Shown here in pieces: positions 9,139 through 30,360 of a DNA stretch of 55,303 nucleotides. Within the stretch, counting starts at the first letter, position 1; every line of letters begins with the position of its first letter. Where the stretch lies: assembly GCA_946491705.1 (NCBI GenBank), contig CAMLYM010000002.1, forward strand, positions 1 to 55,303. Reading direction: 5' to 3'. The stretch comes from an uncultured Clostridia bacterium (GTDB lineage: Bacteria > Bacillota > Clostridia > Oscillospirales > Acutalibacteraceae). The notes beneath the pieces are model-generated. The model was not told where the DNA came from, ran no database searches, and worked only from the letters and a program-made list of their open reading frames with translations. The translations under genes were made by a program, and so were the position numbers.

Positions 9139-9273
9139 GAAAAGCGACCCCTTGTAAATGAGACGGATCGCTGGGATCGGATGTACGATGGCCGCATAAA
9201 ATTTAAGGCAACTGGTGACACTGATGGAAAGAAAGCAATGCGGCAGTCAATGTGCGGGAGGGTTGCGCTGCGT

Positions 9274-10500: not shown

Positions 10501-11281
10501 CCCCAGCGACCGCGACCGGTTTCTCCGGGCAGTGGCCTCTTTAATCGGCCAAACCTTTTCCAGGTGGGAACTGATTTTATATGACGACGGATCCGACCCA
10601 GCCCATCAGCCGCTGATCCGGGAGGTAGCGGGGTTGGACCGGCGGATCCATCTGTTGCGCGGGGAGCGAAACCACGGCCTTGCCTTCGCTCTCAACGAGG
10701 GAATCCGGCTGGCAAAGGGCAAATTCATCGCCCGAATGGACGACGACGACATTGCAAGACCAGACCGGCTGCAAAAACAGGTGCTGTTTTTGCAGGAAAA
10801 CCATCGGTACCAATGGGTGGGGTCCAACGCCCTGCTCATAGACGAGCAGGGCGTATGGGGGATGGAAACAAAACCGGAGTGCCCAGAGGCCCGGGACTTT
10901 TTGTTCAACTCCCCGTACATCCATCCTTCTGTTTTGTTTCGCAAAGAAACGCTGATGGCCTGCGGCGGTTACCGGACGTCCAGGGATGTTTTGCAGTGCG
11001 AAGATTACGAACTGTTCATGCGGCTGCACCAAAGGGGCTTTCGCGGGTTCAACCTACAGGAGCCGCTGCTATGGTATTGGGAAGGACGGGACTCTTTTCG
11101 TAAACGCACCTATTCCAGGCGCGTAAGGGAGATGAAGGTGCGCTACCGAGGGTTCCGGGAGCTTGGGGTGCTCAGCCCGGGTACGTTTCCTTACGTGCTC
11201 AAGCCCTTGGCGGTGGGAGCGATCCCGGCGTCCCTCCACCGGCGCATCCGCAGGCGGATGAAAGAAAAAAAGGAAACCTAA
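10457..11281 (+). CDS. Family 2 glycosyltransferase
   Basis: 274 residues with a GT-A fold. The N-terminus is KVSIIMGVFNPSDRD; the nucleotide-binding Asp pair is in LILYDDGS; the metal-binding DXD-type motif is in ARMDDDDIARPDRL (~residue 95); the acceptor side has CEDYELFMRL. An inverting polymer-chain glycosyltransferase is expected, acting on the cytoplasmic face of the membrane. The C-terminal tail is highly basic and may help membrane contact. It overlaps the GT4 gene and is followed within 30 bases by the COG5610-like gene. The sugar used is unknown. Confidence 0.92.
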   Translation: MGQLIKVSIIMGVFNPSDRDRFLRAVASLIGQTFSRWELILYDDGSDPAHQPLIREVAGLDRRIHLLRGERNHGLAFALNEGIRLAKGKFIARMDDDDIARPDRLQKQVLFLQENHRYQWVGSNALLIDEQGVWGMETKPECPEARDFLFNSPYIHPSVLFRKETLMACGGYRTSRDVLQCEDYELFMRLHQRGFRGFNLQEPLLWYWEGRDSFRKRTYSRRVREMKVRYRGFRELGVLSPGTFPYVLKPLAVGAIPASLHRRIRRRMKEKKET

Positions 11282-11307: not shown

Positions 11308-12687
11308 ATGACGCAGCCAAACAGCGAAAAGCTTTCGCAGTACCAAGCCTATTTAAAGGAAAACCCACGGCTCTATGAGGCGGTCCTATCAACCAAAGCG
11401 GCAACGGACGACCTTGCGGCACAGGTCGCCCAGCATGTACTGGCCCCGGCGCTGGGAGGATTTGTCCAATGGCTGTTAACAAATGCCGTGCGCAACGGGA
11501 TAAAGCGGCTGTACTTTCTCGCGCGGGACGGGTACTGGATGCATCAAATGGCCTTGCGCCTGTGCAAGGCGCTTCCATTGCCCATCGAGTGCCGGTATTT
11601 GTGCTGCTCGCGGTATTCCCTGCGTCTTCCCACCTATCATTTGGACAAGCAGGCAGCCCTTTCCTACGTGTGCCGCGGCGGGCTGCATGTAACCATGGGG
11701 ACTATTTTACGGCGGGCGGGGCTGACGCAGGAAGAACAGGACGAGGTGGCGCATGCGCTGTCTGTCTCCTTAGGGGAGGAAGTCCCCCATGCAAGGCTGG
11801 GGCAAGTCCGCCGCCGGCTTTCCAGCTGTGCGCTTTTTCTTTCCTACATGCGGGCCCATTCAAAAAGGGCCTTTCCCGCTCTTACTGGTTATCTTCGGCA
11901 GGAAGGGCTGCTCGACGGGGAACCCTATGCTGTTGTGGACAGCGGATGGGTGGGATCCATGCAGAAAACCCTCGGCGATGCGCTGGCCCATTTGGGATGC
12001 AGCCGGCCGCTGGAAGGGTACTACTTCGGGCTGTACGAGCTGCCAAAGGGAACCGACCCAAACTGCTATCACAGCTATTGTTTCGGCCCTACCGGGCCGG
12101 TTGGGGAAAAGGTGTACTTTAACAACTGCTTATTTGAAGCGGTGTTCACCGCTCCCCATGGCATGACCCTTTCCTACCGGGAGGAAAACGGCCGATATGT
12201 CCCTTGTTTTGGATGCATTCAAGAAGAATATAAAAAGTTCTTAGAAAAAACCGGAGAAGTCTACACCGCGTACGCCCTCCAGCTTGCCAAAGCATCCGGC
12301 AGGGCGCTCCTTTCCCCTGCAGTAGTACAGGAGGACCGGGCGACTGTACGGCGTCTGCTGCGCGCCTTTATGGCGGCGCCTTCCAAGGAGGAAGCGGCGG
12401 TGTTCGGCAGCCTTCCGTTTTCCGACGACGTGCTCGATCAAAACGAGCGGCCTCTCGCCGCCCCTATGACGGAAGAGGAGCTGGCGTCCAGCCACCTGCT
12501 CGCAAAGCTGCTCTCCCGGGCGGGAAAGAGGAACGGCGCGCAACCGGATAGCGCCTGGTTTGAGGGAAGCGCAGCCGCCTATTCGGAGCATCCCGCCCGG
12601 CACCTGCGGCAGTACGCCTGGTTTCAGTACCTGCGGCACTGGCGCAAGCAGGCATTGTACCAAATGGAAAGGAGGAAGCGCCTGTGA
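11308..12687 (+). CDS. Stand-alone COG5610-type domain protein, polysaccharide-associated
   Basis: 459 residues. It matches the C-terminal part of COG5610 (predicted HAD-superfamily hydrolases of polysaccharide loci) but lacks the HAD domain. Shared marks are RLYFLARDGYWMHQMA (~70-85), a CSRYSLRLP segment and AVVDSGWVGSMQKTL (~205-220). The same two motifs appear in the C-terminal half of the 14266-16278 protein (RLLFLSRDG and AAIDVGWAGSG), so the two are partial paralogues. No transmembrane helices or signal peptide are visible. Biochemical function is not established; the conserved Arg-Asp-Gly and Asp-x-Gly-Trp motifs look catalytic or ligand-binding. Start ATG 11308 follows AGAGGGGAAACGGGG. 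Confidence 0.7.
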   Translation: MTQPNSEKLSQYQAYLKENPRLYEAVLSTKAATDDLAAQVAQHVLAPALGGFVQWLLTNAVRNGIKRLYFLARDGYWMHQMALRLCKALPLPIECRYLCCSRYSLRLPTYHLDKQAALSYVCRGGLHVTMGTILRRAGLTQEEQDEVAHALSVSLGEEVPHARLGQVRRRLSSCALFLSYMRAHSKRAFPALTGYLRQEGLLDGEPYAVVDSGWVGSMQKTLGDALAHLGCSRPLEGYYFGLYELPKGTDPNCYHSYCFGPTGPVGEKVYFNNCLFEAVFTAPHGMTLSYREENGRYVPCFGCIQEEYKKFLEKTGEVYTAYALQLAKASGRALLSPAVVQEDRATVRRLLRAFMAAPSKEEAAVFGSLPFSDDVLDQNERPLAAPMTEEELASSHLLAKLLSRAGKRNGAQPDSAWFEGSAAAYSEHPARHLRQYAWFQYLRHWRKQALYQMERRKRL

Positions 12688-13457
12688 CCCGCGCCCAGCA
12701 AAGAAAGCAGCACGCTTTTGTCATCCGGCAGCTGACGGCCAGGGAACTCAAACGCAAATACGCCAGGTCTTATTTGGGGATCGTTTGGAGCGTGCTCAAC
12801 CCGCTTTTGTCCATGGCGGTCCTTTCCTTGATTTTCTCCCAGCTGTTCCGCCGCTCCATCGACAATTACCCGATCTATTATCTGACCGGTTACATCCTCT
12901 GGCAAGCCTTTACCGGCGCTACCACCTCGGCAATGACGACGCTGGTGGACAACAAGGCGCTGCTGCTGAAGGTAAAGTTCCCCATGGAGCTGTTCGTTTT
13001 GACTAGGGCGTACACGGCGCTGATTAACCTGGGGTATTCCCTGGCGGCCTATGTGGTGATGCTGGCGGTTTTCCAGGTCACACCCAAATGGACAATGGCC
13101 TTCTCAGTGGTGATTATCGCCTGTTTGTTTTTGTTTGCTTTGGGGCTGTCGTACATCCTGGCGACGGCTTACGTGTTTTTCGGAGACGTCCGGCATCTTT
13201 ACACGGTGGTGCTGACCCTTTGGATGTACTGCTCGGCCATCTTTTATCCGGTGGAGCAGCTGCAAGGCCCCATCCGCGCGGTCATAGACGCAAACCCGCT
13301 GTACGTATACATCCACTGCCTGCGAAAAGCGGTGATGTCAGGGGCTTTGCCCACCGGCTTCGAACTGGCGCAAATGCTGCTGTGGGGGGTTGGAACGGCC
13401 GCGGTGGGATACTGGGTGTTCCGGCGCAGCAAAAACCGGATCATGCAACGGGTCTAA
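12684..13457 (+). CDS. ABC-2 type polysaccharide export permease (Wzm/TagG-like)
   Basis: 257 residues with about six membrane helices. The N-terminal cytoplasmic start RQLTARELKRKYARSYLGIVWSVLNPLL is the hallmark of O-antigen, teichoic acid and capsule export permeases; the helix-rich middle ends in YPVEQLQG and IDANPLYVYIHCLRKA. It starts with GTG overlapping the previous stop (GTGA) and is followed directly by its ATPase. Together they would flip a lipid-linked, cytoplasmically completed polymer across the membrane. No Wzx/Wzy pair is in the window, so this is the ABC-dependent assembly route. Confidence 0.93.
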   Translation: MTRAQQRKQHAFVIRQLTARELKRKYARSYLGIVWSVLNPLLSMAVLSLIFSQLFRRSIDNYPIYYLTGYILWQAFTGATTSAMTTLVDNKALLLKVKFPMELFVLTRAYTALINLGYSLAAYVVMLAVFQVTPKWTMAFSVVIIACLFLFALGLSYILATAYVFFGDVRHLYTVVLTLWMYCSAIFYPVEQLQGPIRAVIDANPLYVYIHCLRKAVMSGALPTGFELAQMLLWGVGTAAVGYWVFRRSKNRIMQRV

Positions 13458-13468
13458 AGGAGGCATAC

Positions 13469-14260
13469 ATGGGTATTTGGGAAGGGCACAGGCGGGCAAG
13501 CCGGCGGATGCCAAGAGACCCGGCGGTGGACATTGAGGTCAGAAACGTCACGATGGAATTCCGCCGAGCTAAGGATGAGGCGACCAGCTTAAAAGAGCTG
13601 GCGGTGCGCACCCTCCGCCGGCAGCATTCATACGAAACCTTCCGGGCGCTGGACCGGGTCAGCTTCTCCATCCGAAAAGGAGAGGTTGTGGGGATTGTGG
13701 GAACCAACGGCTCGGGAAAAAGCACGCTTTTGAAGATCATCTCCGGCGCGCTGGTCCCTACATGCGGCCAAGTGCTGGTAGACAAAAGCAAGGTACAGCT
13801 GCTTACCCTGGGCACTGGGTTCGACCTGGAGCTGACCGGGCGGGAGAACGTCTACCTCAACGGGGCGATCATCGGGTACACCAAACGCTACATTGACGAA
13901 AAGTACGACCAGATCGTAGCGTTCGCGGAGCTGGAAGGGTTTATGGAGGAGAAGGTGCGAAACTATTCCTCAGGAATGGTATCGCGGCTGGGGTTTGCCA
14001 TTGCCACCGTCCGGGATACGCCAGAAATTTTGATTTTGGACGAGGTGCTGAGCGTGGGGGACTTGTTCTTCCGCAAAAAGAGCGAGGCGCGCATCCGGGA
14101 GATGATCCACGGGGGATCGACGGTGCTGATCGTCTCCCATTCCACCTCCGTCATCCGGGGGAACTGTTCCAAGGCCATCTGGATCGAAAAGGGAAAGCTG
14201 CGGGCGATGGGAGACCCGAAAAGCGTGTGCGACGCGTACGAAGGGATGAAAGGAGGGTAA
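13469..14260 (+). CDS. Polysaccharide ABC exporter ATPase (Wzt/KpsT/TagH-like)
   Basis: 263 residues from ATG 13469 behind AAAGGAGG; the frame is open far upstream inside the permease gene, but that part is not real. It carries Walker A (VGTNGSGKST), the signature motif as YSSGM, Walker B (ILILDEVLSVGD) and the H-loop (LIVSHS). The long N-terminal lead-in (VRNVTMEFRRAKDEATSLKE) is typical of polysaccharide-export ATPases. It lacks the C-terminal sugar-binding domain of Wzt and the extension of TagH, so it resembles the short capsule type and should not sense a modified chain end. It pairs with the permease at 12684. Confidence 0.94.
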   Translation: MGIWEGHRRASRRMPRDPAVDIEVRNVTMEFRRAKDEATSLKELAVRTLRRQHSYETFRALDRVSFSIRKGEVVGIVGTNGSGKSTLLKIISGALVPTCGQVLVDKSKVQLLTLGTGFDLELTGRENVYLNGAIIGYTKRYIDEKYDQIVAFAELEGFMEEKVRNYSSGMVSRLGFAIATVRDTPEILILDEVLSVGDLFFRKKSEARIREMIHGGSTVLIVSHSTSVIRGNCSKAIWIEKGKLRAMGDPKSVCDAYEGMKGG

Positions 14261-14265
14261 CCGTT

Positions 14266-16278
14266 TTGCGGGCATGTGTGTATAACCTGCTGGTCAACCG
14301 GGTGCCGGGCATCCGGGACCGTTACCAAAAGCGGCGAAACCAAAAGGGTACCAGCCGCTTGACGGCCCTTTTGTTCCTTTTATGGCTTAACGTGCAGTAC
14401 TATCTGCTGTTTCGAAGGGAGCTGGCTTTTCCGGAGCGCTATCCGGTCTACGAAGAGCGGCGGCTGCCGGAGGGGGAAAGCGAGTCCTCCCGCTCTCAAC
14501 GGGAAGATCCAGCTTCCTTTGCCGAGAAGCTGTCCCGCTGCGACGTGGTTTCCTTCGACGTATTCGACACCCTTTTATTACGGGTGGTGTCCGACCCCAC
14601 CGACGTGTTCTTCTTTGTAGGGATGTCCCTCTCCTATCCAAACTTTCGGGCCATCCGGGTGGAAATGGAGAAAAAGGTGCGGGAGCAAAAGCGCAGGGAT
14701 ACGGGGAGCGGCGAAGTCACTCTTGCAGAAATTTGGGATGGGGTGGCGCCCGAAACCGGGATTGACAAGACGCTCGGCATGCAGACCGAGCTTTGGTGGG
14801 AAAAGGCATGCTGCATTGCCAACCCCTATATGAAGCAAGTCGTGGAGTGTCTTAGGGCAAAGGGCAAAAAAATCATTGCTGTTTCCGACATGTACCTCAG
14901 CAAAGGCCATATCCGTTCCCTGCTGTCATCCTGTGGATACCCGTCCGTTCTTGATTGCTTTATCTCCTGTGAATACGGCGTCTCCAAAGGAGAGGGAACC
15001 TTGTTCGACCGGGTGCAAGAACAGGTCGGGCGGTCGTACTCCTACGTCCATGTGGGCGACCACGAACATGCCGACTACCACCAGCCCCGGCGCCATCACA
15101 TGCAGGCCTTCCTTTCCCTCAACGTTAATCATATCGGAAACCGATACCGCCCAAGCGATATGTCCGCCATAACCGGGGCTGTATACCGGGGCCTTGCCAA
15201 CGCCCATCTCCACAACGGCCTGACCGCCTATTCCAAAGAATACGAATACGGGTATCTTTATGGGGGCCTGTTCGTTACGGGCTACTGCCGGTTTATCCAC
15301 CGGTATGCAAAGGAGCACGGTATGCAAAGGCTGCTGTTCCTTTCCAGGGACGGTGCGGTGTTGCTTAAAGCATACCGGATGATGTACCCCCAGGAGGCCG
15401 ACACTGCTGTATATGCGTATTGGTCGAGGCTGGCGGCGGTGAAGCTGGCGGCCCGGTATTACAAATGGGAGTATTTCCAACGGTTTTTGTATCACAAAGT
15501 GGATCAGCAGATCCCGTTAAGCCAAATTGTAAAAAGCATGGAGCTGTCCTGCATGCTCCCGGATTTATGCCGGCGGACTCACACAACCCCGGAAACGTTT
15601 TTGACGAATAAAAACGTCCATTCCGTTCAAAGCTATTTCCTAGAAGCCTTTGAAGACGTGCTCGCGCAGTACGAACCGCAGCGGGAAGCGGGAAAAGCCT
15701 ACTACCAAAAGCTTTTACACGGCTGCGACCGGGCAGCGGCGATCGACGTCGGCTGGGCGGGCAGCGGCGCGGTCATGCTCGACTGTATGGTCAACCGCGT
15801 CTGGGGGCTGTCCTGCCCCATTACCGGTATCTTGGCGGGAGGCCCGTCCGCCCTCAGTCCCCAGGCGGACGGTGCAGAGCCCTTCTTTCTCAACGGGAAG
15901 CTTGTCAGCTACCTGTATTCCCAACGGGAAAACCGGGACCTTTGGAAGTTTCACGACCCGGCGCAGAGCCACAACCTTTACTGGGAGCTGCTGTTGGGTG
16001 CGCCCCATGGAAGCTTGAAGGGCTTTTATTGGGATGGGGACGGGAAGGCAACATGCCGGTTCCAAGCTTCGCCGAAAGAACCGCAGCGCATTGAGGAAAT
16101 CCATCGGGGGGTGCTGGCGTTTGTAGAACAATTTCTCGAAGCAGAGCGCCGGCTTGCCATGGAAATCCCCATCAGCGGACGGGACGCTTACGCTCCGATG
16201 CTGCTCGCCTGCAGCCGAGGCAACCGGAAGTTTCGAAAAGGGTTGGAGGAGCTTTTGGATGATGTTCACATCGGATAA
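14266..16278 (+). CDS. HAD-superfamily hydrolase fused to COG5610-type C-terminal domain
   Basis: 670 residues from a TTG at 14266, chosen because AAAGGAGGG lies eight bases before it; an upstream in-frame GTG at 14227 lacks a site and overlaps the ATPase gene. The HAD domain (~75-290) has motif I VVSFDVFDTLLL, motif II AVSDMYLS and the acidic motif HVGDHEHADY. The C-terminal half (~320-670) has RLLFLSRDG and AAIDVGWAGSG, the same motifs as the stand-alone 11308-12687 protein. COG5610 proteins are common in capsule and LPS loci, but their substrate is not settled; removal of phosphate from a sugar-phosphate or lipid carrier intermediate is possible. N-terminal residues ~15-50 are basic and hydrophobic. 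Confidence 0.8.
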   Translation: MRACVYNLLVNRVPGIRDRYQKRRNQKGTSRLTALLFLLWLNVQYYLLFRRELAFPERYPVYEERRLPEGESESSRSQREDPASFAEKLSRCDVVSFDVFDTLLLRVVSDPTDVFFFVGMSLSYPNFRAIRVEMEKKVREQKRRDTGSGEVTLAEIWDGVAPETGIDKTLGMQTELWWEKACCIANPYMKQVVECLRAKGKKIIAVSDMYLSKGHIRSLLSSCGYPSVLDCFISCEYGVSKGEGTLFDRVQEQVGRSYSYVHVGDHEHADYHQPRRHHMQAFLSLNVNHIGNRYRPSDMSAITGAVYRGLANAHLHNGLTAYSKEYEYGYLYGGLFVTGYCRFIHRYAKEHGMQRLLFLSRDGAVLLKAYRMMYPQEADTAVYAYWSRLAAVKLAARYYKWEYFQRFLYHKVDQQIPLSQIVKSMELSCMLPDLCRRTHTTPETFLTNKNVHSVQSYFLEAFEDVLAQYEPQREAGKAYYQKLLHGCDRAAAIDVGWAGSGAVMLDCMVNRVWGLSCPITGILAGGPSALSPQADGAEPFFLNGKLVSYLYSQRENRDLWKFHDPAQSHNLYWELLLGAPHGSLKGFYWDGDGKATCRFQASPKEPQRIEEIHRGVLAFVEQFLEAERRLAMEIPISGRDAYAPMLLACSRGNRKFRKGLEELLDDVHIG

Positions 16279-17242
16279 GGAAAAGGGCCGGCGGGCGGTG
16301 CTGTATCACGCGGTCAGCTCCTACCAGCTGCTGGAAGTCATGCTGCACCGGCTGATAAACCACGAAAAGGAAAAAGCGGTTTTGATTCTGCCGGACTTTA
16401 TTACGCAAAAATATCCCAAGTACCAGAGGCTGGAAAGGCTCGGCCTGTTTGACGAGGTTTACCTCTTCCCCTACCTACGCATTCCTCATCGGGAGGAGGC
16501 AAGGATTTTAGAGGATGTCAGCCGGTGCTGCCAGCAGCGCATTCCCTATGAGATCACCGATTTTTCCGAAATTTACGTGGCCGGGGCGCACTTCTACTTC
16601 TCCCTTTACCTGATTGAAAACCACATCCCGTTCTCCTTTTTCGAAGACGCAGCGGGCATGCTCAGCCGGTGGAAGGAACACGATGAGGCTTTGAGCAAAA
16701 CCTTTCCCATCCATGCGGCCATCGCTAGGAAATACGGGCTGTTCGACGGACGAAACCCCTATATCCGCCGGATTTACTGCCTGAAGCGGGCGCAGACGGT
16801 GAATGTTTCCGGAGAACGCTATGAGGATTTTTCTGTGGAAGAGGCTCTTCAAAATCTCTCCCGCCAAAAGCGCAAACAGGTGATCCGCTTTTTTATCAAG
16901 CGGCGCATCTGCACAAGGGCCGACGCCATCCTGCTCACCCAGCAGTACGCAAACCTGGGGATTATGACTCAAGAAGAGCAGCACCGTCTGTACGAAGGAA
17001 TGCGAACGGCCATCCCGCCGAGTACTCGTCTGCTGATCAAGCGCCACCCGGACGACACGCTCCATTACCAGGACATCTTTCCCCATGCAAAAGAAATCAA
17101 GGAAGTATTCCCAGCCGAGCTGCTTCCCTACGTTTTTACACGAAAGCCGAAGGTGATCTACACCTTTGACTCCACCGGTTGCGAAAATCTCCATACACAG
17201 TTTCAAATTAGAAAGGTAAGAAGGGAACTATATGCCGAATAA
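16259..17242 (+). CDS. Sialyltransferase-like (GT52/polysialyltransferase-type) protein A
   Basis: 327 residues from ATG 16259 (adjacent ATG at 16262), overlapping the previous gene by 20 bases. Marks shared with bacterial sialyltransferase-like families: N-terminal AVLYHAVSSYQLLEV, an acidic-Gly motif FFEDAAG (~120), the His-Pro motif LLIKRHPDD (~255) and a Ser/Thr pair near the C-terminus (YTFDSTG). Such enzymes use CMP-activated nonulosonic or ulosonic acids. The operon encodes a CMP-sugar synthetase, which fits. A divergent paralogue follows immediately. The family call rests on motifs only; other GT-B capsule enzymes share some of them. Confidence 0.6.
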   Translation: MMFTSDKEKGRRAVLYHAVSSYQLLEVMLHRLINHEKEKAVLILPDFITQKYPKYQRLERLGLFDEVYLFPYLRIPHREEARILEDVSRCCQQRIPYEITDFSEIYVAGAHFYFSLYLIENHIPFSFFEDAAGMLSRWKEHDEALSKTFPIHAAIARKYGLFDGRNPYIRRIYCLKRAQTVNVSGERYEDFSVEEALQNLSRQKRKQVIRFFIKRRICTRADAILLTQQYANLGIMTQEEQHRLYEGMRTAIPPSTRLLIKRHPDDTLHYQDIFPHAKEIKEVFPAELLPYVFTRKPKVIYTFDSTGCENLHTQFQIRKVRRELYAE

Positions 17243-18338
17243 TCGAATTTTACTCCTTGTCAATTCTGTTTATCAATTACTGACGGCAGTGCATATGAAG
17301 TGTACTCTATTGCAAGAGGCAGCGATAGACCTGCTAGTATCCGACATTACCCCCGCGCTTAAAGGGTACATTCCTCGTCTGAGGGGGACGGGGCTGTTCG
17401 AACGCGTCCTCTTCGCAAACGTAAACGATCTTAATCGGTCGTATCCTCTAACGAAGCTGGACGCGTTAAACGAAGCGTTCGCAGATAGCAGACGCATCTT
17501 CCAATGGGTACTCAGCGACGACTTGGACGTATACGACGCGGTTTATTTTGCGAATTTTGACCTGTTTACCCGGATGCTGGCCAACTGGTACTATGCGCAG
17601 CTGTGCGAATTCGTATGGTTCGAGGACGGGTTTTCTTCTTACGTGATCGATTATCTAAAGGAGGACCGGGCCGCCGTTAACCGTCACAGGGAAGGGCGGC
17701 GGATCCAGGATAAGGTCAGGCGGGTGCTGCTGTACGAGCCGCGGCTGGCGATGCGGGGGGACGGGCTTCTCAACTGTCCGTTGCCCAAAATCTCGAGAAA
17801 AGACACCGCCTTTCGTTCCCTACTCAATGGGATTTTTGACTACCATAAGCCCGAAGACCCTGCAGATTTTATTTTTTTAGAACAGTCCTTCCGGGCGGAG
17901 GGGATCCAAAGCAACGACCTTGCTTTGATGAAGGAATGCCAAGAAACGGTGGGGCCGGGGCGGTTTGTTGTCAAACCCCATCCCAGAAATCCGGAAAACC
18001 TCCCCCTTCAAATGGGCCTAACCCGCCGGTATGACGGGGACGCGCCGTGGGAGCTGTTTTTGCTAAACGAGGGGGCGGCAGACAAAACCGTCCTGACCGT
18101 CTGCTCCAATGGGGCGCTGACGGCAAGCCTCGTCTTTGGAATGGACATGAACACGGTGATGCTGTATCGGCTGTTTGACGGGAAGGTGCTGTGGAAAGAG
18201 GACGAGATCCTCAAACGGTATTTGCAGACGTTCCAGCGGCAGTTCGCAGGGAAAAACTATTACGTCCCGCAGACTGTGTATGAGCTGCAGCATATTTTAC
18301 GGTATTTGGGAGGGCAGCATGGAGAACAATCCCATTAA
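17232..18338 (+). CDS. Sialyltransferase-like (GT52-type) protein B
   Basis: 368 residues, overlapping the upstream paralogue by 11 bases. Same plan: N-terminal ILLLVNSVYQLLTAVHM, the Asp-Gly motif VWFEDGFSSY (~135), the His-Pro motif FVVKPHPRNP (~240) and CSNGALTASL (~295). The EDG, HP and Ser motifs are the known signatures of bacterial sialyltransferases with a GT-B fold. Two such enzymes beside a CMP-Kdo-type synthetase suggest that each adds a CMP-activated acidic sugar, perhaps with different linkage or acceptor. No membrane helix is seen; action on the cytoplasmic face is expected because export is ABC-type. Confidence 0.65.
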   Translation: MPNNRILLLVNSVYQLLTAVHMKCTLLQEAAIDLLVSDITPALKGYIPRLRGTGLFERVLFANVNDLNRSYPLTKLDALNEAFADSRRIFQWVLSDDLDVYDAVYFANFDLFTRMLANWYYAQLCEFVWFEDGFSSYVIDYLKEDRAAVNRHREGRRIQDKVRRVLLYEPRLAMRGDGLLNCPLPKISRKDTAFRSLLNGIFDYHKPEDPADFIFLEQSFRAEGIQSNDLALMKECQETVGPGRFVVKPHPRNPENLPLQMGLTRRYDGDAPWELFLLNEGAADKTVLTVCSNGALTASLVFGMDMNTVMLYRLFDGKVLWKEDEILKRYLQTFQRQFAGKNYYVPQTVYELQHILRYLGGQHGEQSH

Positions 18339-20055
18339 GGTTTCGATTATCATACCGGTGTACCAGGTGGAAAACTACCTGGAGCGAGCGGTGGACTCGG
18401 TTCTCGCCCAGACCCTGGAAGAAAAGGAGATTATCCTAGTGGACGACGGGAGCACAGACGCTTCCCCGCAGATCTGCGACCGGTATCAAGAACAGTATCC
18501 GGGCCTAGTACGGGTGCTACACAAGGAAAACGAAGGGCTTGGACTGACCCGCAACGCCGGAGTTCGCATGGCTAAGGGGGAATACGTGGCCTTTTTGGAT
18601 TCCGACGACAGCGTGGAGCCGGACATGTATCAGGAACTGTACGACAAAGCGGTGGAGGGCGGTTACGACTATGTGATGTGCGACGTAAAGATCATCTACG
18701 TGGACGAAGGCCGAAGCTCCGTAGTGTCCTCTTACCCCAGGGAAACCATCGATCTCGCCGATTACATTGCCAACGGCAACAACATCACCTACAGCGTCAA
18801 CAAGCTCTTTCGCAGAAGCATCTGGGAAGAAAACCAGTACGAAAAGATGCTGTTTGAGGACATTTCCCTCATTCCCTCTTTGGTCACCCGGTACCATCAT
18901 GTGGGCTACATCCCCAAGCCTTTTTACAATTACTACCGCCGGTCCGACACCATTTCCACCACCTTTGCGGGAGAGATGGTGGACATCATTCAGGCGTTTA
19001 GCAACTTTCTCGACCGAAGCGACCCGGCCTACCGGGAAGAAGTCGTCTACTGCACGGCAAAGCAGCTTTACTGGAACATGCTGCAGTCCAGAGTGCTGTT
19101 CCAGGCGGACTTTATTGGGCTGCTTCAGAAATACAAAAAGGATTTCCTGTTAAACCCGTATCTTGCCAAGGACAAGCAGAGGAAAAAGCTGCTGGAATTC
19201 TTGGATTATGAGGTTATCCCGGAAACCTTCTTCTGTGTGCATTTGGGAAGGCCAATCCCCCTGGGCTACCTGGAGGAGATCCGCACCGATTTCCCAAAGG
19301 CGCGGCTGATTCAAGTGGACGAAATCAACTGCTCCGAAAAGGAGCTGCCCGGCTGTGTACTAAAAGCGCTGGAAGCGGGGAACCTTGGGTTTGTGGAGGA
19401 GTATTTGGCGCTTCGGCTGCTGTATAAGGAAGGCGGCATTGTGTTGAGCCCAGACATGCGGGCCAATCTCAACCTCAAGCGGCTGCGGCTCAACCGGGTC
19501 TTCTTCGGCTTTGACAGTGAAGAAGATCTGTTGGGCGGCTGCTTTGGGGCGCTGAAGGGGCACTACGTCATCCAGGCGCTGCTGGATTCCTACCGGGATG
19601 AGTCCATCTTCAACAAAGCCATGCTCCCTTTAAAAGACCGCATCCGGGATTTTCTGATGATACACTTTCAGCTGAAGGCAAACGGCCGCAACCAGCTGCT
19701 CAAGCACGAGGTCCAAGTGTATCTGCCAAGCGTGCTGGCGTACGACATGAAGGACGGGGACAACTGCTGCAAAAAAGCGCAGTACCCGGTTGCACAGGGG
19801 TACGAGGTGGTAAGCGATGCGGTGCTCAAGATGTGGTCCGACCGGCTGCTGGAAAACTGGAACCTATATAAGCAGGAGCGGGGCACAAAGGCGGCTGGGG
19901 GTGCAAGGCCGTCCCCGGCTGCGAAAGACCCGCCGACCCTTTCCCTGCAGGAGATGGACCGGCGTATTCAGGAAGTGGTGGACACGTACGAAAATTCAAC
20001 CTGCTGGCGGCTGACAAAGCCGATTCGGGCCGTCGCCAGGCTGCTCGGAAAATAA
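18319..20055 (+). CDS. GT2 glycosyltransferase with C-terminal GT32-like domain
   Basis: 578 residues from ATG 18319, overlapping the previous gene by 20 bases. Residues 1-~320 are a standard GT-A family 2 domain (KVSIIIPVYQVENYLERAVDSV, LVDDGSTD, AFLDSDDSVEPDMY, LFEDISLIPSL). Residues ~340-520 resemble the sugar-binding region of family 32 enzymes: a HLGRPIPLGYLEEI start and ALRLLYKEGGIVLSPDM in the place where GT32 proteins have a YGG(I/V)Y-D-D motif. The usual DXD is degenerate here (SPD), so the second domain may be inactive or use another metal site. A C-terminal Lys/Arg-rich helix could bind membrane. It may add two sugars in sequence. Confidence 0.85.
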   Translation: MENNPIKVSIIIPVYQVENYLERAVDSVLAQTLEEKEIILVDDGSTDASPQICDRYQEQYPGLVRVLHKENEGLGLTRNAGVRMAKGEYVAFLDSDDSVEPDMYQELYDKAVEGGYDYVMCDVKIIYVDEGRSSVVSSYPRETIDLADYIANGNNITYSVNKLFRRSIWEENQYEKMLFEDISLIPSLVTRYHHVGYIPKPFYNYYRRSDTISTTFAGEMVDIIQAFSNFLDRSDPAYREEVVYCTAKQLYWNMLQSRVLFQADFIGLLQKYKKDFLLNPYLAKDKQRKKLLEFLDYEVIPETFFCVHLGRPIPLGYLEEIRTDFPKARLIQVDEINCSEKELPGCVLKALEAGNLGFVEEYLALRLLYKEGGIVLSPDMRANLNLKRLRLNRVFFGFDSEEDLLGGCFGALKGHYVIQALLDSYRDESIFNKAMLPLKDRIRDFLMIHFQLKANGRNQLLKHEVQVYLPSVLAYDMKDGDNCCKKAQYPVAQGYEVVSDAVLKMWSDRLLENWNLYKQERGTKAAGGARPSPAAKDPPTLSLQEMDRRIQEVVDTYENSTCWRLTKPIRAVARLLGK

Positions 20056-20068
20056 GGAGGGAGTTTGG

Positions 20069-20812
20069 ATGCATACGGTTGCAATCATTCCGGCGCGGTA
20101 CCATTCCAGCCGTCTGGCCGGCAAGCCGTTGGAGGACATCTGTGGAAAACCGATGATTTGGTGGGTGTACCGCCAGGTAAAAAAAGCGAAGGGGATCGAC
20201 GAGGTCTATGTGGCCACCGACCACGAACGCATCCGGCAGGCGTGCGGCCATTACGGCATCCCCTGCAAGATGACTTCGCCGGATCATCCCACCAGCACCC
20301 AGAGGATTTACGAGGTGGCCAGGCAGGTGAAGGCGGACGTATACGTCTGCGTCAACGGGGACGAGCCGTTGATACAGCCGGACTTGATCGAGCGGGTGCT
20401 CCCCCCGTCGACGGAGGGCTTCTTTGCCACCAACCTGATGGCCAAAATTCACCGGCCATCTCATGTGGTGGATGAGTCCAACATCAAGGTGGTGACCGAT
20501 ACGCAGGGCAATGCGCTGTTTATGTCCAGAAGCCCCATCCCCCACCCTAAGGCGGCCCTACAGTTTGACTACTATAAGCATCTGGGGGTGCTGGCCTATT
20601 CGCTGCAAGCCCTCGCGTTCTTTGCACAGACGGAAAAAGGGGAGCTGGAAAAAATCGAGGACGTCAACGAGCTCCGCTTCATCGAGCATGGGAAACCGCT
20701 GCGCATGATCCCGGTGGAGGCGGACACGCTGTCGGTGGATACGAAAAAGGATTTGGAATACGTTCGAAGCATCATTCGGGACCGGCTGGAGAGAGGAGAG
20801 GAAGAGGCATGA
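20069..20812 (+). CDS. kdsB: 3-deoxy-manno-octulosonate cytidylyltransferase (CMP-Kdo synthetase type)
   Basis: 247 residues, standard KdsB length. N-terminal IIPARYHSSRLAGKPL binds CTP; ATDHERI, VNGDEPLIQP and LGVLAYSLQAL, together with ELEKIEDVNELRFIEHG, all match the family. The reaction couples CTP with a 3-deoxy-2-ulosonic acid to give the CMP-sugar and pyrophosphate. ATG 20069 follows AAGGAGGGAG; the stop overlaps the next start as ATGA. Kdo is classically Gram-negative, so in this Gram-positive setting the substrate may be Kdo in a capsule or a related ulosonic acid. No KdsA, KdsD or NeuB is visible; the next two genes probably supply the acid. Confidence 0.92.
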   Translation: MHTVAIIPARYHSSRLAGKPLEDICGKPMIWWVYRQVKKAKGIDEVYVATDHERIRQACGHYGIPCKMTSPDHPTSTQRIYEVARQVKADVYVCVNGDEPLIQPDLIERVLPPSTEGFFATNLMAKIHRPSHVVDESNIKVVTDTQGNALFMSRSPIPHPKAALQFDYYKHLGVLAYSLQALAFFAQTEKGELEKIEDVNELRFIEHGKPLRMIPVEADTLSVDTKKDLEYVRSIIRDRLERGEEEA

Positions 20813-22416
20813 GCATTCAAGTTCTGGACTGCACGCTGCGCGACGGCGGGTATATCAACGACTGGCAGTTTGGAAAAAAGAACATCGCGTCCATTTTGGA
20901 CAAGCTGGAACAGGCAAACATCGACATCATCGAGTGCGGGTTTTTAACCGGCATGGTGCAGGATGAGGAATGCTCGCTGTTTCACGACGTTGAGGGGATT
21001 GAAGCGGTGCTTCCCCGGCGGGAACGGACGTCCATGTATGTGGCGATGATCGCCATTGGGGAAAAAGAGCTGCACCCCTCCTCCCTGCCGCCTTACGACG
21101 GAAAGAGCATCGAAGGAATCCGGCTGACCTTTCACAAGGAGGAGGTGGGGCAGGCCGTCGAATGGGCGAAGATCATCATGGAAAAGGGATACCAGGTGTT
21201 CATGCAGCCGGTGGGGACGGTGTTCTACACCGATCTGGAGCTGCTGGAGCTGGTGGAAAAAATGAACCGCCTCAGACCCTACGCCTTCTATATTGTCGAT
21301 ACGCTGGGGAGTATGTACCGCAACGACGTGTCCCACCGGTTTTACCTGATCGACAAAAATATGGATCCGGGCATCCGTCTGGGGTTTCACGGGCACAACA
21401 ACCTGCAGCTCGCCTTTTCCAACGCCCAGATTCTGGGAAAAATTCAGACCAAACGCACCCTGGTCCTGGACGCCACCGTGTACGGGATGGGGCGGGGCGC
21501 AGGCAACCTGCCGACAGAGCTAATCACCCAGTATATCAACAAAAACATCGCGTCCCGGTACGATGTGACCATGGTGATGGACATTTACGACGAATACATC
21601 TGCGCGATCAGGAAACGGTACGAATGGGGGTATACGGTACCGTACCACATCGCGGCGAGCCACGTCTGCCATCCCAACTACGCCGCTTATCTGATCGACA
21701 AGCAGACGCTGACCATGAAGGACATTGAAAAAATCATCCAATCCATCCCGGGAAAGCACAAGGTATTGTACGACCGGGGGCTGATTGAACGGCTTTACAC
21801 CCAGTTCCAAAGCAAAAAGATCGATGACAGCGCTTGTGTCGGGGAAATCACCGCGCTCATAAAAGGGCGACCTCTTCTCCTGCTGGCCCCGGGCAAAACC
21901 CTAACAACCCATGCCGACGCCATCCGGTCGTTTATCGAACAGGCGCATCCTTTTGTCATATCGGTCAACTTTGTCGATTCCCGCTACCAGGCGGACGCCT
22001 GCTTCGTAAGCAACCACAAGCGAATGGACGTGATTGAGCGGGATCTTCAGCCGCCGGCCCGGATGCGCGTCATCCTCACCTCCAACATCCCTTACCGTGC
22101 CGGGGAGGACGACTTGTTTGTCGATTACGATCAGTACACCAACGACGATGAGATGATTTCCGACAACGCGGGGCTGATGCTGCTAAAACTGCTGATCCGG
22201 TGCGGGGCGAAAGAGGTGTTTTTGGCGGGGTTCGACGGGTTCCTCCCCAGCGCGAAGGGGAATTATTACCGCCAGGAGCTGGACATTCCTCTCAAAGAAG
22301 AGGAGGCGCTGGAAAAGCAGCGCCGGATTCGAAAGCAGCTCAAAGAACTGTCCCGTTTCCTCAATCTTACGTTTTTGACCCCTTCGGTTTACGAGCAGGA
22401 GGAAGCGGATGTATAA
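20809..22416 (+). CDS. HOA-like DRE-TIM aldolase with extra C-terminal domain
   Basis: 535 residues. Residues 1-~270 form a DRE-TIM metallolyase barrel like 4-hydroxy-2-oxovalerate aldolase: VLDCTLRDGGYIND holds the catalytic Arg-Asp, GFHGHNNLQLA the metal-binding His pair, and GMGRGAGNLPTE the closing motif. The barrel is followed by a helical region. Residues ~345-535 form a second domain (RPLLLLAPGKTLTTHADAI, VISVNFVDSRYQADACFVS, DNAGLMLLKLLI, KEVFLAGFDGF) that recalls DUF115/GT42-type proteins. The catalysed reaction is unknown for this branch. Between CMP-ulosonate synthetase and phosphatase genes, pyruvate-aldehyde condensation to a 2-keto-3-deoxy acid is the natural guess. It has ATGA overlap upstream and an 8-base overlap downstream. 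Confidence 0.82.
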   Translation: MSIQVLDCTLRDGGYINDWQFGKKNIASILDKLEQANIDIIECGFLTGMVQDEECSLFHDVEGIEAVLPRRERTSMYVAMIAIGEKELHPSSLPPYDGKSIEGIRLTFHKEEVGQAVEWAKIIMEKGYQVFMQPVGTVFYTDLELLELVEKMNRLRPYAFYIVDTLGSMYRNDVSHRFYLIDKNMDPGIRLGFHGHNNLQLAFSNAQILGKIQTKRTLVLDATVYGMGRGAGNLPTELITQYINKNIASRYDVTMVMDIYDEYICAIRKRYEWGYTVPYHIAASHVCHPNYAAYLIDKQTLTMKDIEKIIQSIPGKHKVLYDRGLIERLYTQFQSKKIDDSACVGEITALIKGRPLLLLAPGKTLTTHADAIRSFIEQAHPFVISVNFVDSRYQADACFVSNHKRMDVIERDLQPPARMRVILTSNIPYRAGEDDLFVDYDQYTNDDEMISDNAGLMLLKLLIRCGAKEVFLAGFDGFLPSAKGNYYRQELDIPLKEEEALEKQRRIRKQLKELSRFLNLTFLTPSVYEQEEADV

Positions 22417-23071
22417 GTGCGTTTTATTCGACATGGACGGTACCTTGGTCAATTCCTATGAGGGGATTTACCGGGCGTACCGGCAGGCATTTGCGTGTTT
22501 GGGCCTGCCCTTTCTGGGGGACGCCTTTGTTCAGACCGCTATCGGCGCACCTCTCCCCTTTGTGTTCGAGCATCTGTGCGGCATGAGCCGGGAGCGGGCT
22601 GTACAGGCCATCCGCTGCTACCGGGAATATTACGCAAAACAGGGGTGGCGCCAGGTGCAGGTTTACGACGGGATGCGGGAAACTCTGGGCGAACTAAAGG
22701 AGGCGGGCTGCTTTCTGGCGACCGCTACGCTAAAAAAGGAGACGTTTGCCAAGCAGATTCTGCAGGAAACGGGGCTGCTCTCCTTGTTCGACGCCGTGTG
22801 CGGGATGGACGAGGACGACCGGCTCACCAAGGCCGACCTCATACGCCGGGGCATGGAAGCGGCAGGCGCTCTGCCGGAGGAAACGGTCTTGGTGGGCGAC
22901 AGCGAATTCGACCTGGCGGGGGCCGGACAAGCTGGAATCGATTTTTTGGCGGTCACCTACGGGTTCGGGTTTCGCACGCCCCAAGCCCGCGCACAGCTAA
23001 ACGGCCGCATGCAGGCGGAAAGTCCCCGTAACATTGCCGCGCGGCTCAGGCAAGCGAGCGCGAGGGTATGA
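22409..23071 (+). CDS. HAD-IA phosphatase (phosphoglycolate-phosphatase-like)
   Basis: 220 residues with all four HAD motifs: I in VLFDMDGTLVNSYEG, II in FLATATLKK (Thr), III in the Lys of LTKADLI, and IV in ETVLVGDSEFDLAGA. The cap domain sits between motifs I and II (subclass IA). It is the last gene of the operon and overlaps the aldolase by 8 bases, so a role in the same pathway is likely: removing phosphate from the ulosonic acid phosphate before CMP activation, as KdsC or NeuB-partner phosphatases do elsewhere. The substrate is inferred from context, not from the sequence. Confidence 0.88.
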   Translation: MYKCVLFDMDGTLVNSYEGIYRAYRQAFACLGLPFLGDAFVQTAIGAPLPFVFEHLCGMSRERAVQAIRCYREYYAKQGWRQVQVYDGMRETLGELKEAGCFLATATLKKETFAKQILQETGLLSLFDAVCGMDEDDRLTKADLIRRGMEAAGALPEETVLVGDSEFDLAGAGQAGIDFLAVTYGFGFRTPQARAQLNGRMQAESPRNIAARLRQASARV

Positions 23072-23075
23072 AAAG

Positions 23076-23107
23076 CGCCCGGGAAAATTTCTCCGGGCGT
23101 TTCTTTC
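23076..23107 (+). terminator. Terminator of the polysaccharide operon
   Basis: Seven-bp GC stem CGCCCGG/CCGGGCG (23076-23099) followed by TTTCTTTCT, five bases after the HAD phosphatase stop. It closes the ~14-kb operon. Confidence 0.85.
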
Positions 23108-23130
23108 TGCGCTTTTGATTTTTCAAAGAA

Positions 23131-23470
23131 TCAAGTAAGCGGCTGGTTCCAATGGTTGCGATCCTTGAAGGCTTTCAGCTGGTCTTGGTAGGCGACAAAG
23201 CTTGTTAGGTCCATCGTGCCTGTGCTATCGTCATACGTACCGTCTGGATTAAAAAGCATCACAATTAGTTTAGAGTGTTTCCCAAATCCAGTATATATTG
23301 CTCTACCATAATCATCGGAAACGATATAAACTATGGGATTTCCCCTGCTTCTTGCATCGTCACCAAGATAAGAACGATATCGACGATACACCACTTCTTC
23401 ATCCATCGGCCCTTTTGATTTTGCTCGTACAATCTCCACCTTTACGCATTTCTCTTCAGCAGTGGATTTT
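23131..23470 (-). pseudogene. Minus-strand ORF fragment cut at the Rhs junction
   Basis: Open frame ending at 23131, with plausible protein sequence from the Rhs junction (RFHLKSTAEEK) through IVYIVSDDYGRAIYTGFGKH to the stop. The only usable start inside it is a GTG at 23439 (102 codons) with no good ribosome binding site, and protein-like sequence extends upstream of it to the point where the Rhs repeats begin on the other strand. That suggests a C-terminal fragment of a gene whose front was lost. No family recognised. It is AT-richer than the polysaccharide operon. Confidence 0.4.
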
Positions 23471-23472
23471 AG

Positions 23473-25862
23473 ATGAAATCTCTGAACAGATCCGCTCGTC
23501 TGTGGAGTACAACAGCGACGGGAGCCTGGTTACCAAGGTAACCGACGCACGCGGCAACGGAACCACCTATTCTTATGGGGGCAACCCGGGGCTTGTCACC
23601 AAAGTAACCGACGCCAAGGGGAATGAAACCAGCTATACCTACGACTCCAACACCGATGCGGTGACCTCGGTATCCTCCGGGAGCACCGCCAACAGCTATA
23701 CCTACGAGGACGACCAGCTCACCAAGATTACCCACAACGGGTTCGACTATTCCTTTACCTATGACGGCTTTGGCAACACCACTCAGACCAAGGTGGGGAG
23801 CCAAACGCTGATGGCCAACACCTACGGCCCCTACAACGGCCTGCTCCAGCTTGGCACCTACGGCAACGGCAAGACCGTGGGCTATACCTACGACGAGTTC
23901 GACCAGCTCATCGAGAAAAGCTATGACGGGACTGCCGCCTTCCGGTACAAGTACGACGCGAGAGGGGCTCTGTTCGAGCAGGAAGACCTGCTCAACAACA
24001 TCACCACCCGGTATGAGTATGACCTGATCAACCGCCTGACCGGTGTGCGCACCAGCCACGGGCAGGAGCTGCTGGTCCGTTACGACGACAAGAACCGGGT
24101 GGACTTTAACCTCAGCAAGGTGCTGGGCGTTGCCACCAAGACCCAGTTCCTCTACGGGGACACCTCCCAGCAGCAGAAGCCCGGGCTCATCTATGGGGTG
24201 AAGGTCAACGGCAATCAGGTCCTCAGCTACGGCTATGACGGCCTGTCCCGTCTTTCCACCCGTACCCTGAACACCTCCACCCCCTTTGTCACCCGGTACG
24301 AATACCTAGAGGGAAGCGCCCCCAATTCCACCACTGCTCTTATTAAATCCGTGCAGAATGGGGACAAGACCCTCTATTATTCCTATGACGAGCTAGGCAA
24401 CATCACCGAAATCCGGGACAACCTCTTCCCGGACCTTTACCCATTGGTGCGGTATGAGTATGACGAGTTGGGGCAGCTGGTAAAGGCATATGAGTACGAC
24501 AGGGGTATGTGGGCCTACGGCTACACCTACGATGACGGCGGGAACATCCTGAAAAAGAGCGTCTATGACCTGACGGTGGATGACGAAGGGACCATTGTTG
24601 ACCATGAGATCGTCTATGGGTACAACGATGCCAACTGGAAGGACAAGCTGACCAGTTACAACGGCCAGACCATCACCTACGACGAGATCGGCAACCCTCT
24701 CACCTACCGGGACGGCATGGCCTTCACCTGGCAGCATGGGCGGGAGCTGGCCACCTTCTCGAAAGCCGGGACAAATGCAGCCTACCACTACAACGACTCG
24801 GGGATCCGGGTGAAGAAGGTGGTAAACGGGGTTGAGACGGAATACTACTTGAATGGCTCGACGATCCTGACCCAGATCACCGGGGACGACCGGTTGGATT
24901 TCCTATATGACGACACAGGAAGCTTGCTGGGGTTCCTTTCCGATGGGGAAAGCTACTACTATGTGAAAAACCTGCAAGGGGATATCACCGGCATCCTGGA
25001 CAGCAACGGCAGCCAAGTGGTAAACTATGTCTATGATGCATGGGGCAAGGTGGAACTTGTTTCCGGGACGATGTCCTCTACTCTGGGCCATCTCAACCCA
25101 TTCCGTTATCGTGGTTACTACTATGATGAGGAATCCAGCCTTTACTACCTCAACTCCAGGTACTACGATCCCGAAACTTGCCGATTCATCAATGCGGATG
25201 GGTATGTAGACACAGCTCAAGGCATTCATTCCCAGAATATGTTTGCTTATTGTGCAAACAATCCTATTAATAGGTCTGATTTAAATGGGCAGTTTTGGGG
25301 TCTCGTAATTGGTATCACGTTTGTTGTTGGACTTGTAGCATCTTTGTCTGGTTGTTCCTCACAACCCGCACCAACTTCAAATACTGGGGCAGCACAGCCA
25401 TATGTAAATATGCCTGGAAGTAGCGATAAAAACTCTCCAAATTGTTATGCATATGCAATTGGATCACCCGTCAATGAACAACCTGGTGGGAGAAGCGGGA
25501 AGTCACCCACTAAATGGAATGATGTAAATGATGTTGGAAAATCTGTTGAGGCAGACCTGAAATCTATGGGAAAAACAGTTCGAAAAATTGATGGACCTAA
25601 TGCAAAGGTTTATGACAATGAGTTTAAGATTGCATTAAGAGTGGGGACACAGCCATATGCATACAATCCATATTCAGGCGAACTATATTACGACTATCAT
25701 TTCATGCGTCAGACAGATACAGGCCAATGGGCTGAAAAACATGGTATCGGTGGTGCTTCAGTTTTGTGGGATGCTGGAATGACACCAGATACAATCCCAT
25801 GGACACTGAATGGTGTTCCATATTATGACAGTCCTATTATTTATTATGCAGTTGGGAATTGA
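23473..25862 (+). CDS. Rhs-family protein, 5'-truncated, with C-terminal toxin-like domain
   Basis: The frame is open from a TTG at 23298, but Rhs-like sequence starts only near 23480 (RSSVEYNSDGSLVTKVTD); the part before it is antisense to another ORF and there is no signal peptide. About 600 residues of YD repeats (YTYDSNT, YSFTYDGFGN, YRYKYDARG, YSYDELGNITEI) end in the conserved core RYYDPETCRFINADGY and boundary NNPINRSDLNG near 25290. The last ~190 residues are a different, AT-rich domain: a hydrophobic helix with lipobox-like SLSGC, then a Cys motif PNCYAYAIG and a His motif YYDYHFMRQ, suggesting a papain/NlpC-like hydrolase. A lipoprotein gene follows 8 bases on. Probably a displaced or recombined Rhs tip, so expression is uncertain. 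Confidence 0.75.
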
Positions 25863-28945: not shown

Positions 28946-28966
28946 AATTCCATGGAGGTGTCTGCC

Positions 28967-30358: not shown

Positions 30359-30360
30359 GA

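Follow-up and report, generated by a model that had tools for sequence, protein, structure and literature searches.

A candidate pyruvate-aldolase route to a CMP-activated 3-deoxy-2-ulosonic acid in a polysaccharide operon of an uncultured Clostridia bacterium

The window analysed in this study is the stretch of 55,303 nt of contig CAMLYM010000002.1 (GCA_946491705.1) from an uncultured Clostridia bacterium of the Acutalibacteraceae. It carries a polysaccharide operon with an ABC exporter, all on the + strand, and the last genes of this operon encode a KdsB-family cytidylyltransferase, an aldolase of the HOA-like branch of the DRE-TIM superfamily and a HAD phosphatase. Cytidine monophosphate (CMP)-activated ulosonic acids are usually traced to two phosphoenolpyruvate (PEP)-dependent synthases, KdsA and NeuB. 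The best explanation of our data is that the operon both produces and consumes a CMP-activated 3-deoxy-2-ulosonic acid, with neither KdsA nor NeuB in the route and with the aldolase probably being a pyruvate aldolase feeding KdsB. The sequence itself gives the genes, the conserved site residues, the absence of KdsA, true NeuB and KdsD from the assembly, and the association across genomes; from these we infer the reaction, its direction, pyruvate as the donor, the order of the steps and the transferase. The three genes and the two domains of the aldolase are as follows.

20069..20812, + strand: KdsB-family cytidylyltransferase (CMP-ulosonate synthetase), 247 amino acids (aa); Pfam/NCBIfam match, conserved core residues retained, some pocket-side columns changed.
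20809..22416, + strand: two-domain aldolase, 535 aa, a DRE-TIM HOA-like aldolase fused to a sialyltransferase-fold domain; Pfam/NCBIfam and structure model.
20809..21771, + strand: N-terminal domain of the aldolase, residues 1-321; alignment of 56 sequences and structure matches.
21772..22413, + strand: C-terminal domain of the aldolase, residues 322-535, with the fold of MptE-like HPPK, Maf and GT42/GT29 sialyltransferases; profile and fold comparison.
22409..23071, + strand: HAD_2 phosphatase, 220 aa; Pfam/NCBIfam.

The original prediction described these three genes as overlapping, or nearly so, at the end of a polysaccharide operon, and the open reading frames (ORFs) were confirmed at their positions, with overlaps of 4 bases between kdsB and the aldolase gene and of 8 bases between the aldolase and HAD genes; the gap between kdsB and the gene upstream is 13 bases. 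The Pfam matches were to CTP_transf_3 for KdsB (E 1.5e-48), HMGL-like for the aldolase (E 3.5e-18) and HAD_2 for the phosphatase (E 1.2e-31). The gene order glycosyltransferase-kdsB-aldolase-HAD was found again in other genomes, which indicates that the three-gene arrangement is not due to chance. One weak terminator-like site follows the HAD gene (23095-23114), but it carries no weight as evidence, since 0.5 such sites are expected by chance.

In the proposed pathway, the aldolase would act as a metal-dependent class II enzyme that adds the enolate of pyruvate to an aldehyde, which central metabolism would probably supply as an aldose phosphate, and its product would be a 4-hydroxy-2-oxo acid, namely a 3-deoxy-2-ulosonate phosphate. 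The HAD enzyme would take off the phosphate, and the KdsB-family enzyme would use cytidine triphosphate to form the CMP-3-deoxy-2-ulosonate. A glycosyltransferase of the operon would then transfer the sugar into the polymer, the POLYST-like proteins probably being the best candidates, and the polymer would be exported by Wzm/Wzt. The joining of pyruvate to an aldehyde is suggested by the enzyme family, the conserved site residues and the gene company. The canonical pathway to CMP-activated 3-deoxy-D-manno-octulosonic acid (Kdo), consisting of KdsD, KdsA, KdsC and KdsB, is alike in its KdsB-family activation, its HAD phosphatase and its polysaccharide locus, but the window has a pyruvate-type DRE-TIM aldolase in place of the PEP-using KdsA and of KdsD, neither of which was found. 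According to a published study, a canonical kdsA, B, C, D island occurs in a Bacillus (PMC4744853). No account linking this aldolase with CMP-ulosonate synthesis was found in the open literature searched, and one may exist beyond it.

The bacterium's own genome assembly (2.17 Mb, 157 contigs) is 90.8% complete. KdsA was not found in it; the best match to TIGR01362 (113.6 bits against a cut-off of 314) was to a protein of 352 aa on contig 11 resembling 3-deoxy-D-arabino-heptulosonate 7-phosphate (DAHP) synthase, which is the sole DAHP/KdsA-type protein of the genome and scores 261 bits with PF00793. A true NeuB was not found in the genome either. The one NeuB match, to the same DAHP-synthase-like protein, reached 36.1 bits, which exceeds the Pfam cut-off of 22.1, and the true NeuBs of relatives score 240-303 bits. 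There was no TIGR00393 (KpsF/KdsD) match in this genome, and LpxC was not found in it, as expected of a monoderm. The absence of a visible KdsA and NeuB, on which the original prediction had relied, thus holds for the available assembly, and the full kdsA/kdsD set elsewhere in the genome that it had named as contrary evidence was looked for and not found. An ordinary Kdo pathway with distant KdsA and KdsD genes was set aside after the search for both, and so was a NeuB route, the genome having no true NeuB. A second, short aldolase of the superfamily (24% identical) is encoded on contig 137 (L076, 2533-3510) beside a serine recombinase gene.

The KdsB of the window scored above the cut-offs of two NCBIfam KdsB subfamilies (NF009905, 264.5 against 255; NF003952, 255 against 193), and it fell short of the kdsB equivalog TIGR00466 by 2.5 bits (152.7 against 155.2). 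These scores and the retained core would also agree with the alternative that the pathway makes ordinary Kdo, the aldolase using arabinose 5-phosphate and pyruvate and KdsB being a normal CMP-Kdo synthetase, and a KdsC-family phosphatase does lie nearby in one related locus (L050, see below). However, the missing KpsF/KdsD match means that Kdo itself is not favoured as the product, and we regard this alternative as improbable. For example, at position 175 Leu and at position 201 Glu were found in all 23 rows of window-type KdsBs (some of them near-duplicates), whereas the four solved KdsBs have Tyr and Gln. These fixed pocket-side changes also speak against Kdo, although as weak evidence on the sugar, because three KdsBs that lie beside KdsA depart from the solved enzymes at pocket-side columns too. 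A direct reading of the sugar identity from the pocket residues was rejected for the same reason.

The relation between KdsA and the aldolase was surveyed in 300 genomes of the family (aldolase query at E 0.001; full-length KdsB-like genes at E below 1e-30). The aldolase query matched 83 of them, and the long two-domain form was present in 40 (44 genes, including a truncated copy in G299, whose locus was left out of the layouts, and a frame-broken copy in G283). KdsA scored above its cut-off in 7 genomes, and the other 189 matching genomes scored far lower, as DAHP synthases would. There were 37 full-length KdsB-like genes in 36 genomes; the TIGR00466 cut-off was passed in 19 genomes, the window's not being among them. 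The aldolase adjoined 21 of the 37 KdsB-like genes, KdsA stood beside or within 2 kb of 6, and none had both; moreover, KdsA above its cut-off was found in none of the 20 genomes carrying the aldolase-KdsB pair. This mutual exclusion beside KdsB lends support to the prediction that the aldolase replaces KdsA/NeuB. Another KdsB-like gene (G270, L045, 5651-7573) is followed directly by an HpcH/HpaI aldolase, which is above the PF03328 cut-off and below the NCBIfam equivalogs; we read this as convergence in favour of the proposed route, a second, unrelated pyruvate aldolase family having come to stand beside KdsB. Among long-form aldolases viewed with short flanks, three (L023, L024 and L027) have a KdsB-like match beside them. 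The 19 further long-form loci (L057-L075) comprise 11 with a second CMP-synthetase family (CTP_transf_3), which lies one gene away from the aldolase in L068 and L069, and 8 with a thiamine diphosphate (TPP) enzyme. In a phylum sample of 398 genomes, the two-domain form occurred in only 2 besides the window's genome (E 1e-30), so it is not general in the phylum.

Eight family genomes (L037-L044, KdsB near 5600-6700) have a KdsB-like gene that scores 221-229 bits with TIGR00466, above the one of the window. Its neighbours are a 403-aa-type protein without a Pfam match, a BNR_2-type protein and mostly a GNAT acetyltransferase, and neither KdsA nor this aldolase family was found beside it.

Comparison of loci within the family suggested a replacement in place. 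In three canonical sets from same-family genomes (L047-L049), kdsB, kdsA and kdsD lie side by side with an MptE-like gene near all three, and a KdsC-like gene is present in L048 and L049. L047 was scanned (PF00793, SIS and CBS), the other two loci being assigned by clustering with it, and the KdsC-like gene of L048 was scanned. The MptE/GT42-like gene near these sets may be the transferase. In L050 the order is flippase, MptE-like gene, KdsB, aldolase, GT8 gene and an enzyme of the KdsC/KDN-9-phosphatase family (TIGR01670, 122 bits against a cut-off of 107), so that the aldolase and the GT8 gene occupy the place of kdsA and kdsD. Two more loci of this kind, L053 and L056, have a short aldolase without the C-terminal domain and a CMP synthetase of the second type. 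The nearness of a KdsC-type phosphatase to the aldolase suggests that the ulosonate would be formed with a phosphate group, its acceptor being an aldose phosphate.

The association was also found outside the family. A scan of GTDB gave at least 578 confirmed relatives, of which the best 80 loci by score were analysed with own-genome records excluded; neighbour classes were assigned with profile hidden Markov models (HMMs) built from few sequences. These loci are mostly from Clostridia, with some from Bacilli, Bacteroidales and Gastranaerophilales, one from Fusobacterium and one from an archaeal metagenome-assembled genome, and the nearest named ones are from uncultured Clostridia, several from chicken. 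One of the KdsB-type clusters (L106) belongs to a cultured relative, Blautia sp. An249. A CMP synthetase lay within 400 bp of 61 of the 81 aldolases and within 6 kb of 4 more (65 in total), and 14 had a TPP enzyme and no CMP synthetase within 6 kb; one locus (L150) has both a CMP synthetase within 400 bp and a TPP enzyme. As a rough control, a CMP synthetase lay no more than 400 bp away from 60 of 791 other ORFs of at least 200 aa in the same loci, spurious ones included. An HMM made from three sequences detected no KdsA in the neighbourhood of the 81 aldolases. In the Pfam tally of immediate neighbours, for which 4 loci upstream and 11 downstream were omitted for want of a suitable ORF, CTP_transf_3 stood upstream in 60/76, and downstream there was a match to a HAD hydrolase family in 33/69 and to POLYST in 2/69; the CTP_transf_3 and HAD counts speak for the proposed route. 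Co-occurrence of the aldolase with CMP synthetases, the lack of which had been named in advance as contrary evidence, was therefore strong. On a quick tree of 80 aldolases (the window's plus 79 more), in which 18 of the 77 inner branches had poor support, the TPP label needed 4 changes and a partner label with three states (KdsB, second CMP type, TPP) needed 16, which suggested that partners were exchanged repeatedly while the aldolase stayed. The exporter-to-HAD gene order was repeated in several other genomes. The aldolase of the window had no match among phage records.

In 5 of 69 loci (L132, L141, L148, L156 and L167) the gene after the aldolase encodes a PfkB kinase related to 2-dehydro-3-deoxygluconokinase (KDG kinase) that scores below the KDG kinase cut-offs; such a kinase would fit 2-keto-3-deoxy acid metabolism.

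Another alternative is that KdsB activates an ulosonate that comes from elsewhere, such as salvage, an aldolase of the 2-keto-3-deoxy-6-phosphogluconate type or NeuB, and that the aldolase serves another step, for example a pyruvate-derived side group. The searches of the own genome were aimed at KdsA, NeuB, KpsF/KdsD, LpxC and the aldolase of the window, which leaves room for another aldolase family, and 3 of the 20 genomes with the aldolase-KdsB pair have a true NeuB elsewhere, a point that also weighs against the proposed route. On the other hand, the placement of the CMP synthetase within 400 bp in most loci, the stay of the aldolase through the partner changes on the tree and its mutual exclusion with KdsA beside KdsB speak against such a side role, and we judge this alternative unlikely.

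Regarding the enzyme itself, the best NCBIfam matches of the window aldolase were 4-hydroxy-2-oxovalerate aldolases (98.5 and 86.8 bits), and it also matched isopropylmalate, homocitrate and citramalate synthases weakly, at 36 bits or less. Residues R11, D12, E42, H194 and H196 were invariant in the 56 aligned sequences; by analogy with DmpG, we take D12, R11 and E42 to be the DRE residues and H194 and H196 to be the metal-binding His residues. The full-length model had a predicted local distance difference test score (pLDDT) of 91.8, and the top Foldseek matches of the N-terminal domain, a TIM barrel of the HMGL-like/HOA type, were 3DXI and 4lrt/1nvm. The closest solved relative is 3DXI, the N-terminal domain of a putative aldolase (BVU_2661) of Bacteroides vulgatus, which is 24% identical and has the CTLRDGGY motif in common with the window enzyme; its title gives no function, and the literature matches listed for it were all off topic. 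The 4-hydroxy-2-oxovalerate aldolases 1nvm/4lrs/8ih7 are also among the closest solved relatives. Compared with the latter enzymes (DmpG/BphI/HsaF; 1nvm, 4lrs, 4jn6, 8ih7), the fold and the D/R/E/H/H residues are alike, whereas the window enzyme differs in Tyr15 at the place of what is presumably the base His, in its added C-terminal domain and in its sugar-polymer context, and no aldehyde dehydrogenase is present among the operon genes scanned. The HOA family proper has a settled reaction, and for the 'DGGY' branch no assigned reaction was found; the earlier statement that the HOA-like branch has no settled reaction thus stands for the 'DGGY' branch and not for the family as a whole.

The common superfamily and the weak synthase matches might suggest that the enzyme is a Claisen-type DRE-TIM synthase with acetyl-CoA as the donor. 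We rejected this candidate, since the matches to 4-hydroxy-2-oxo acid aldolases are much stronger, and a malate-type product would presumably offer no 2-keto group to KdsB or to a TPP enzyme; such a synthase would be very surprising here.

Several observations weigh against a pyruvate aldolase that feeds KdsB. Every NCBIfam aldolase model is far below its cut-off for the window enzyme (for the 4-hydroxy-2-oxovalerate aldolase equivalog TIGR03217, 86.8 bits against 286), and the alignments place Tyr15 at the position that we take to be that of the catalytic His of DmpG/BphI, after the RDG motif, so the mechanism must differ in detail from those enzymes. The incompleteness of the own genome bears on the absence of KdsA, KdsD and NeuB. 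In the family survey, 8 of the 37 KdsBs are in unrelated context and 1 (G057, L046) is in a flippase cluster without the aldolase, and short homologues have neither a CMP synthetase nor a TPP enzyme among the genes laid out (L054 and L055, 33% identical; L076-L082, 24-28% identical). The 80 loci, being the best-scoring of at least 578, are biased towards the window's type, and even among them 2 of the 81 aldolases (L134 and L152) have neither partner, although their starts are no more than about 640 bases from the end of a contig. Larger HAD-like proteins may be included in the 33/69 downstream HAD matches, and among the 61 aldolases in the 400-bp CMP-synthetase class a HAD_c4 or KdsC-like gene lies within 6 kb of only 31, indicating that the phosphatase step is not universal. 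TPP enzymes are immediate neighbours in only 6/76 upstream and 2/69 downstream, the TPP class having been counted within 6 kb.

The aldolase has a second domain that was absent from the earlier description. The C-terminal domain, modelled alone (pLDDT 89.9), has the fold of MptE-like HPPK (Z 12.7, 3.1 A, 168 residues), Maf (Z 12.0, 4.2 A, 191 residues), the cell-division regulator SteA (Z 11.1, 4.1 A, 155 residues) and the GT42 sialyltransferase CstII with CMP (Z 11.0, 3.3 A, 160 residues); mammalian sialyltransferases followed at Z 8.4-10.0, and the next row was at 5.3. By sequence, no match to the PDB was obtained with the single sequence, and the profile gave only E 0.04 or worse. By profile comparison (hhalign; 90%, E 1.4e-6) the domain is akin to the MptE-like proteins encoded in the loci compared here, and those proteins in turn match GT42 and Maf. 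Across the 56 sequences, Asn, Ser, Asp and Gly residues of the domain are invariant and no His is, the catalytic residue of GT42 being a His. Because of this, and because the domain is also present in the aldolases of TPP loci, an active transferase role is not claimed; under the wider reading given at the end, it may bind or hand over the aldolase product.

The TPP-partnered relatives (14: L108, L139, L148, L154, L156, L157, L159, L162, L163 and L171-L175) have acetolactate-synthase-like enzymes within 6 kb. In L148, which is one of them, the aldolase lies by a glucose-1-phosphate cytidylyltransferase, a CDP-glucose 4,6-dehydratase and RfbH (RfbF/G/H, all above cut-off), and our own HMMs place some or all of the RfbF/RfbG/RfbH-type genes in several further TPP loci. 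The L148 aldolase matched three plasmid records (44%, 27% and 25% identical over 54-63% of its length), and a relative occurs on a Desulfobaculum plasmid together with RfbH and two transketolase-type genes. Pyruvate plus acetaldehyde would account for the chain that is added in erwiniose, and pyruvate plus a four-carbon deoxy aldose for the one in caryophyllose; by analogy such chains are what an HOA-like aldolase would make. One aldolase family could thus serve CMP synthetases and TPP enzymes alike, since either would require a 4-hydroxy-2-oxo acid, and we count this exchange of partners in favour of the proposed reaction. According to a review (PMC12247030), ErwE joins a hydroxy-functionalised 2-keto acid to CDP-4-keto-3,6-dideoxyglucose to give erwiniose, with 4-hydroxy-2-oxobutanoate, -pentanoate or -hexanoate and not pyruvate as the donor, and MMAR_2332 has a similar donor preference for caryophyllose. 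The TPP loci are candidate clusters for C-branched sugars of the erwiniose/caryophyllose type, with the aldolase as a possible maker of the 4-hydroxy-2-oxo acid donor. What connects the aldolase with ErwE and YerE-like C-branching enzymes is the TPP enzyme near some of its relatives, joined in L148 by RfbF/G/H; in contrast, no TPP enzyme is present among the window operon genes scanned, and the aldolase product is expected to go to KdsB.

The remaining genes of the operon, upstream of kdsB, and two ORFs before the exporter are as follows.

18322..20055, + strand: glycosyltransferase with a GT2 domain and an unassigned C-terminal part, the kdsB neighbour in this cluster type; Pfam and locus comparison.
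17232..18338, + strand: POLYST-like protein, weak, PF07388 21.5 bits, below the cut-off of 23.3; kept in the cluster.
16250..17242, + strand: POLYST-like protein, PF07388 29.1 bits, above the cut-off of 23.3; kept in the cluster.
14227..16278, + strand: 683-aa protein with a weak HAD-like part and no Pfam match; NCBIfam scan, kept in the cluster.
13088..14260, + strand: ORF containing a Wzt/TagH-like ABC ATPase, the true start probably near 13460; Pfam/NCBIfam.
12684..13457, + strand: Wzm-like ABC-2 permease; Pfam/NCBIfam.
11308..12687, + strand: 459-aa protein without Pfam or NCBIfam match; kept in the cluster.
9181-10500 and 10457-11281, + strand: two putative glycosyltransferase ORFs, assigned by inspection of ORFs.

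The exporter genes matched ABC_tran and ABC2_membrane in Pfam, and their TagH-like and Wzt/Wzm-like matches in NCBIfam were below the equivalog cut-offs. After the operon, the ORF list contains a long ORF with YD/RHS-like repeats (23298-25862) and ORFs reading as an ATPase and a TraG/VirD4-like coupling protein (28952-32352); the latter suggest an integrated mobile element.

If the operon works as proposed, it would provide a third, pyruvate-dependent entry to CMP-ulosonic acids, present in hundreds of genomes (at least 578 relatives), and a branch of the DRE-TIM superfamily that has lacked a reaction would receive one, as would 3DXI, whose structure is solved but unassigned. A wider reading, for and against which we find the case evenly balanced, is that the 'DGGY' aldolases form a general carbohydrate-building module, which would join pyruvate to a variable aldehyde to give 3-deoxy-2-ulosonates of many chain lengths, with CMP activation or TPP transfer as their fate. 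The TPP branch of such a module would transfer them onto CDP-4-keto-dideoxyhexoses to give branched sugars of the erwiniose/caryophyllose type, and for long C-branched sugars such as erwiniose the aldolase could be the enzyme that forms the donor. The CMP branch would lead to ulosonic acids of new classes, other than Kdo and the nonulosonic acids, in bacteria that include monoderms of the gut, and the pathway proposed here, if true, predicts a set of unrecognised acid sugars on bacterial surfaces.

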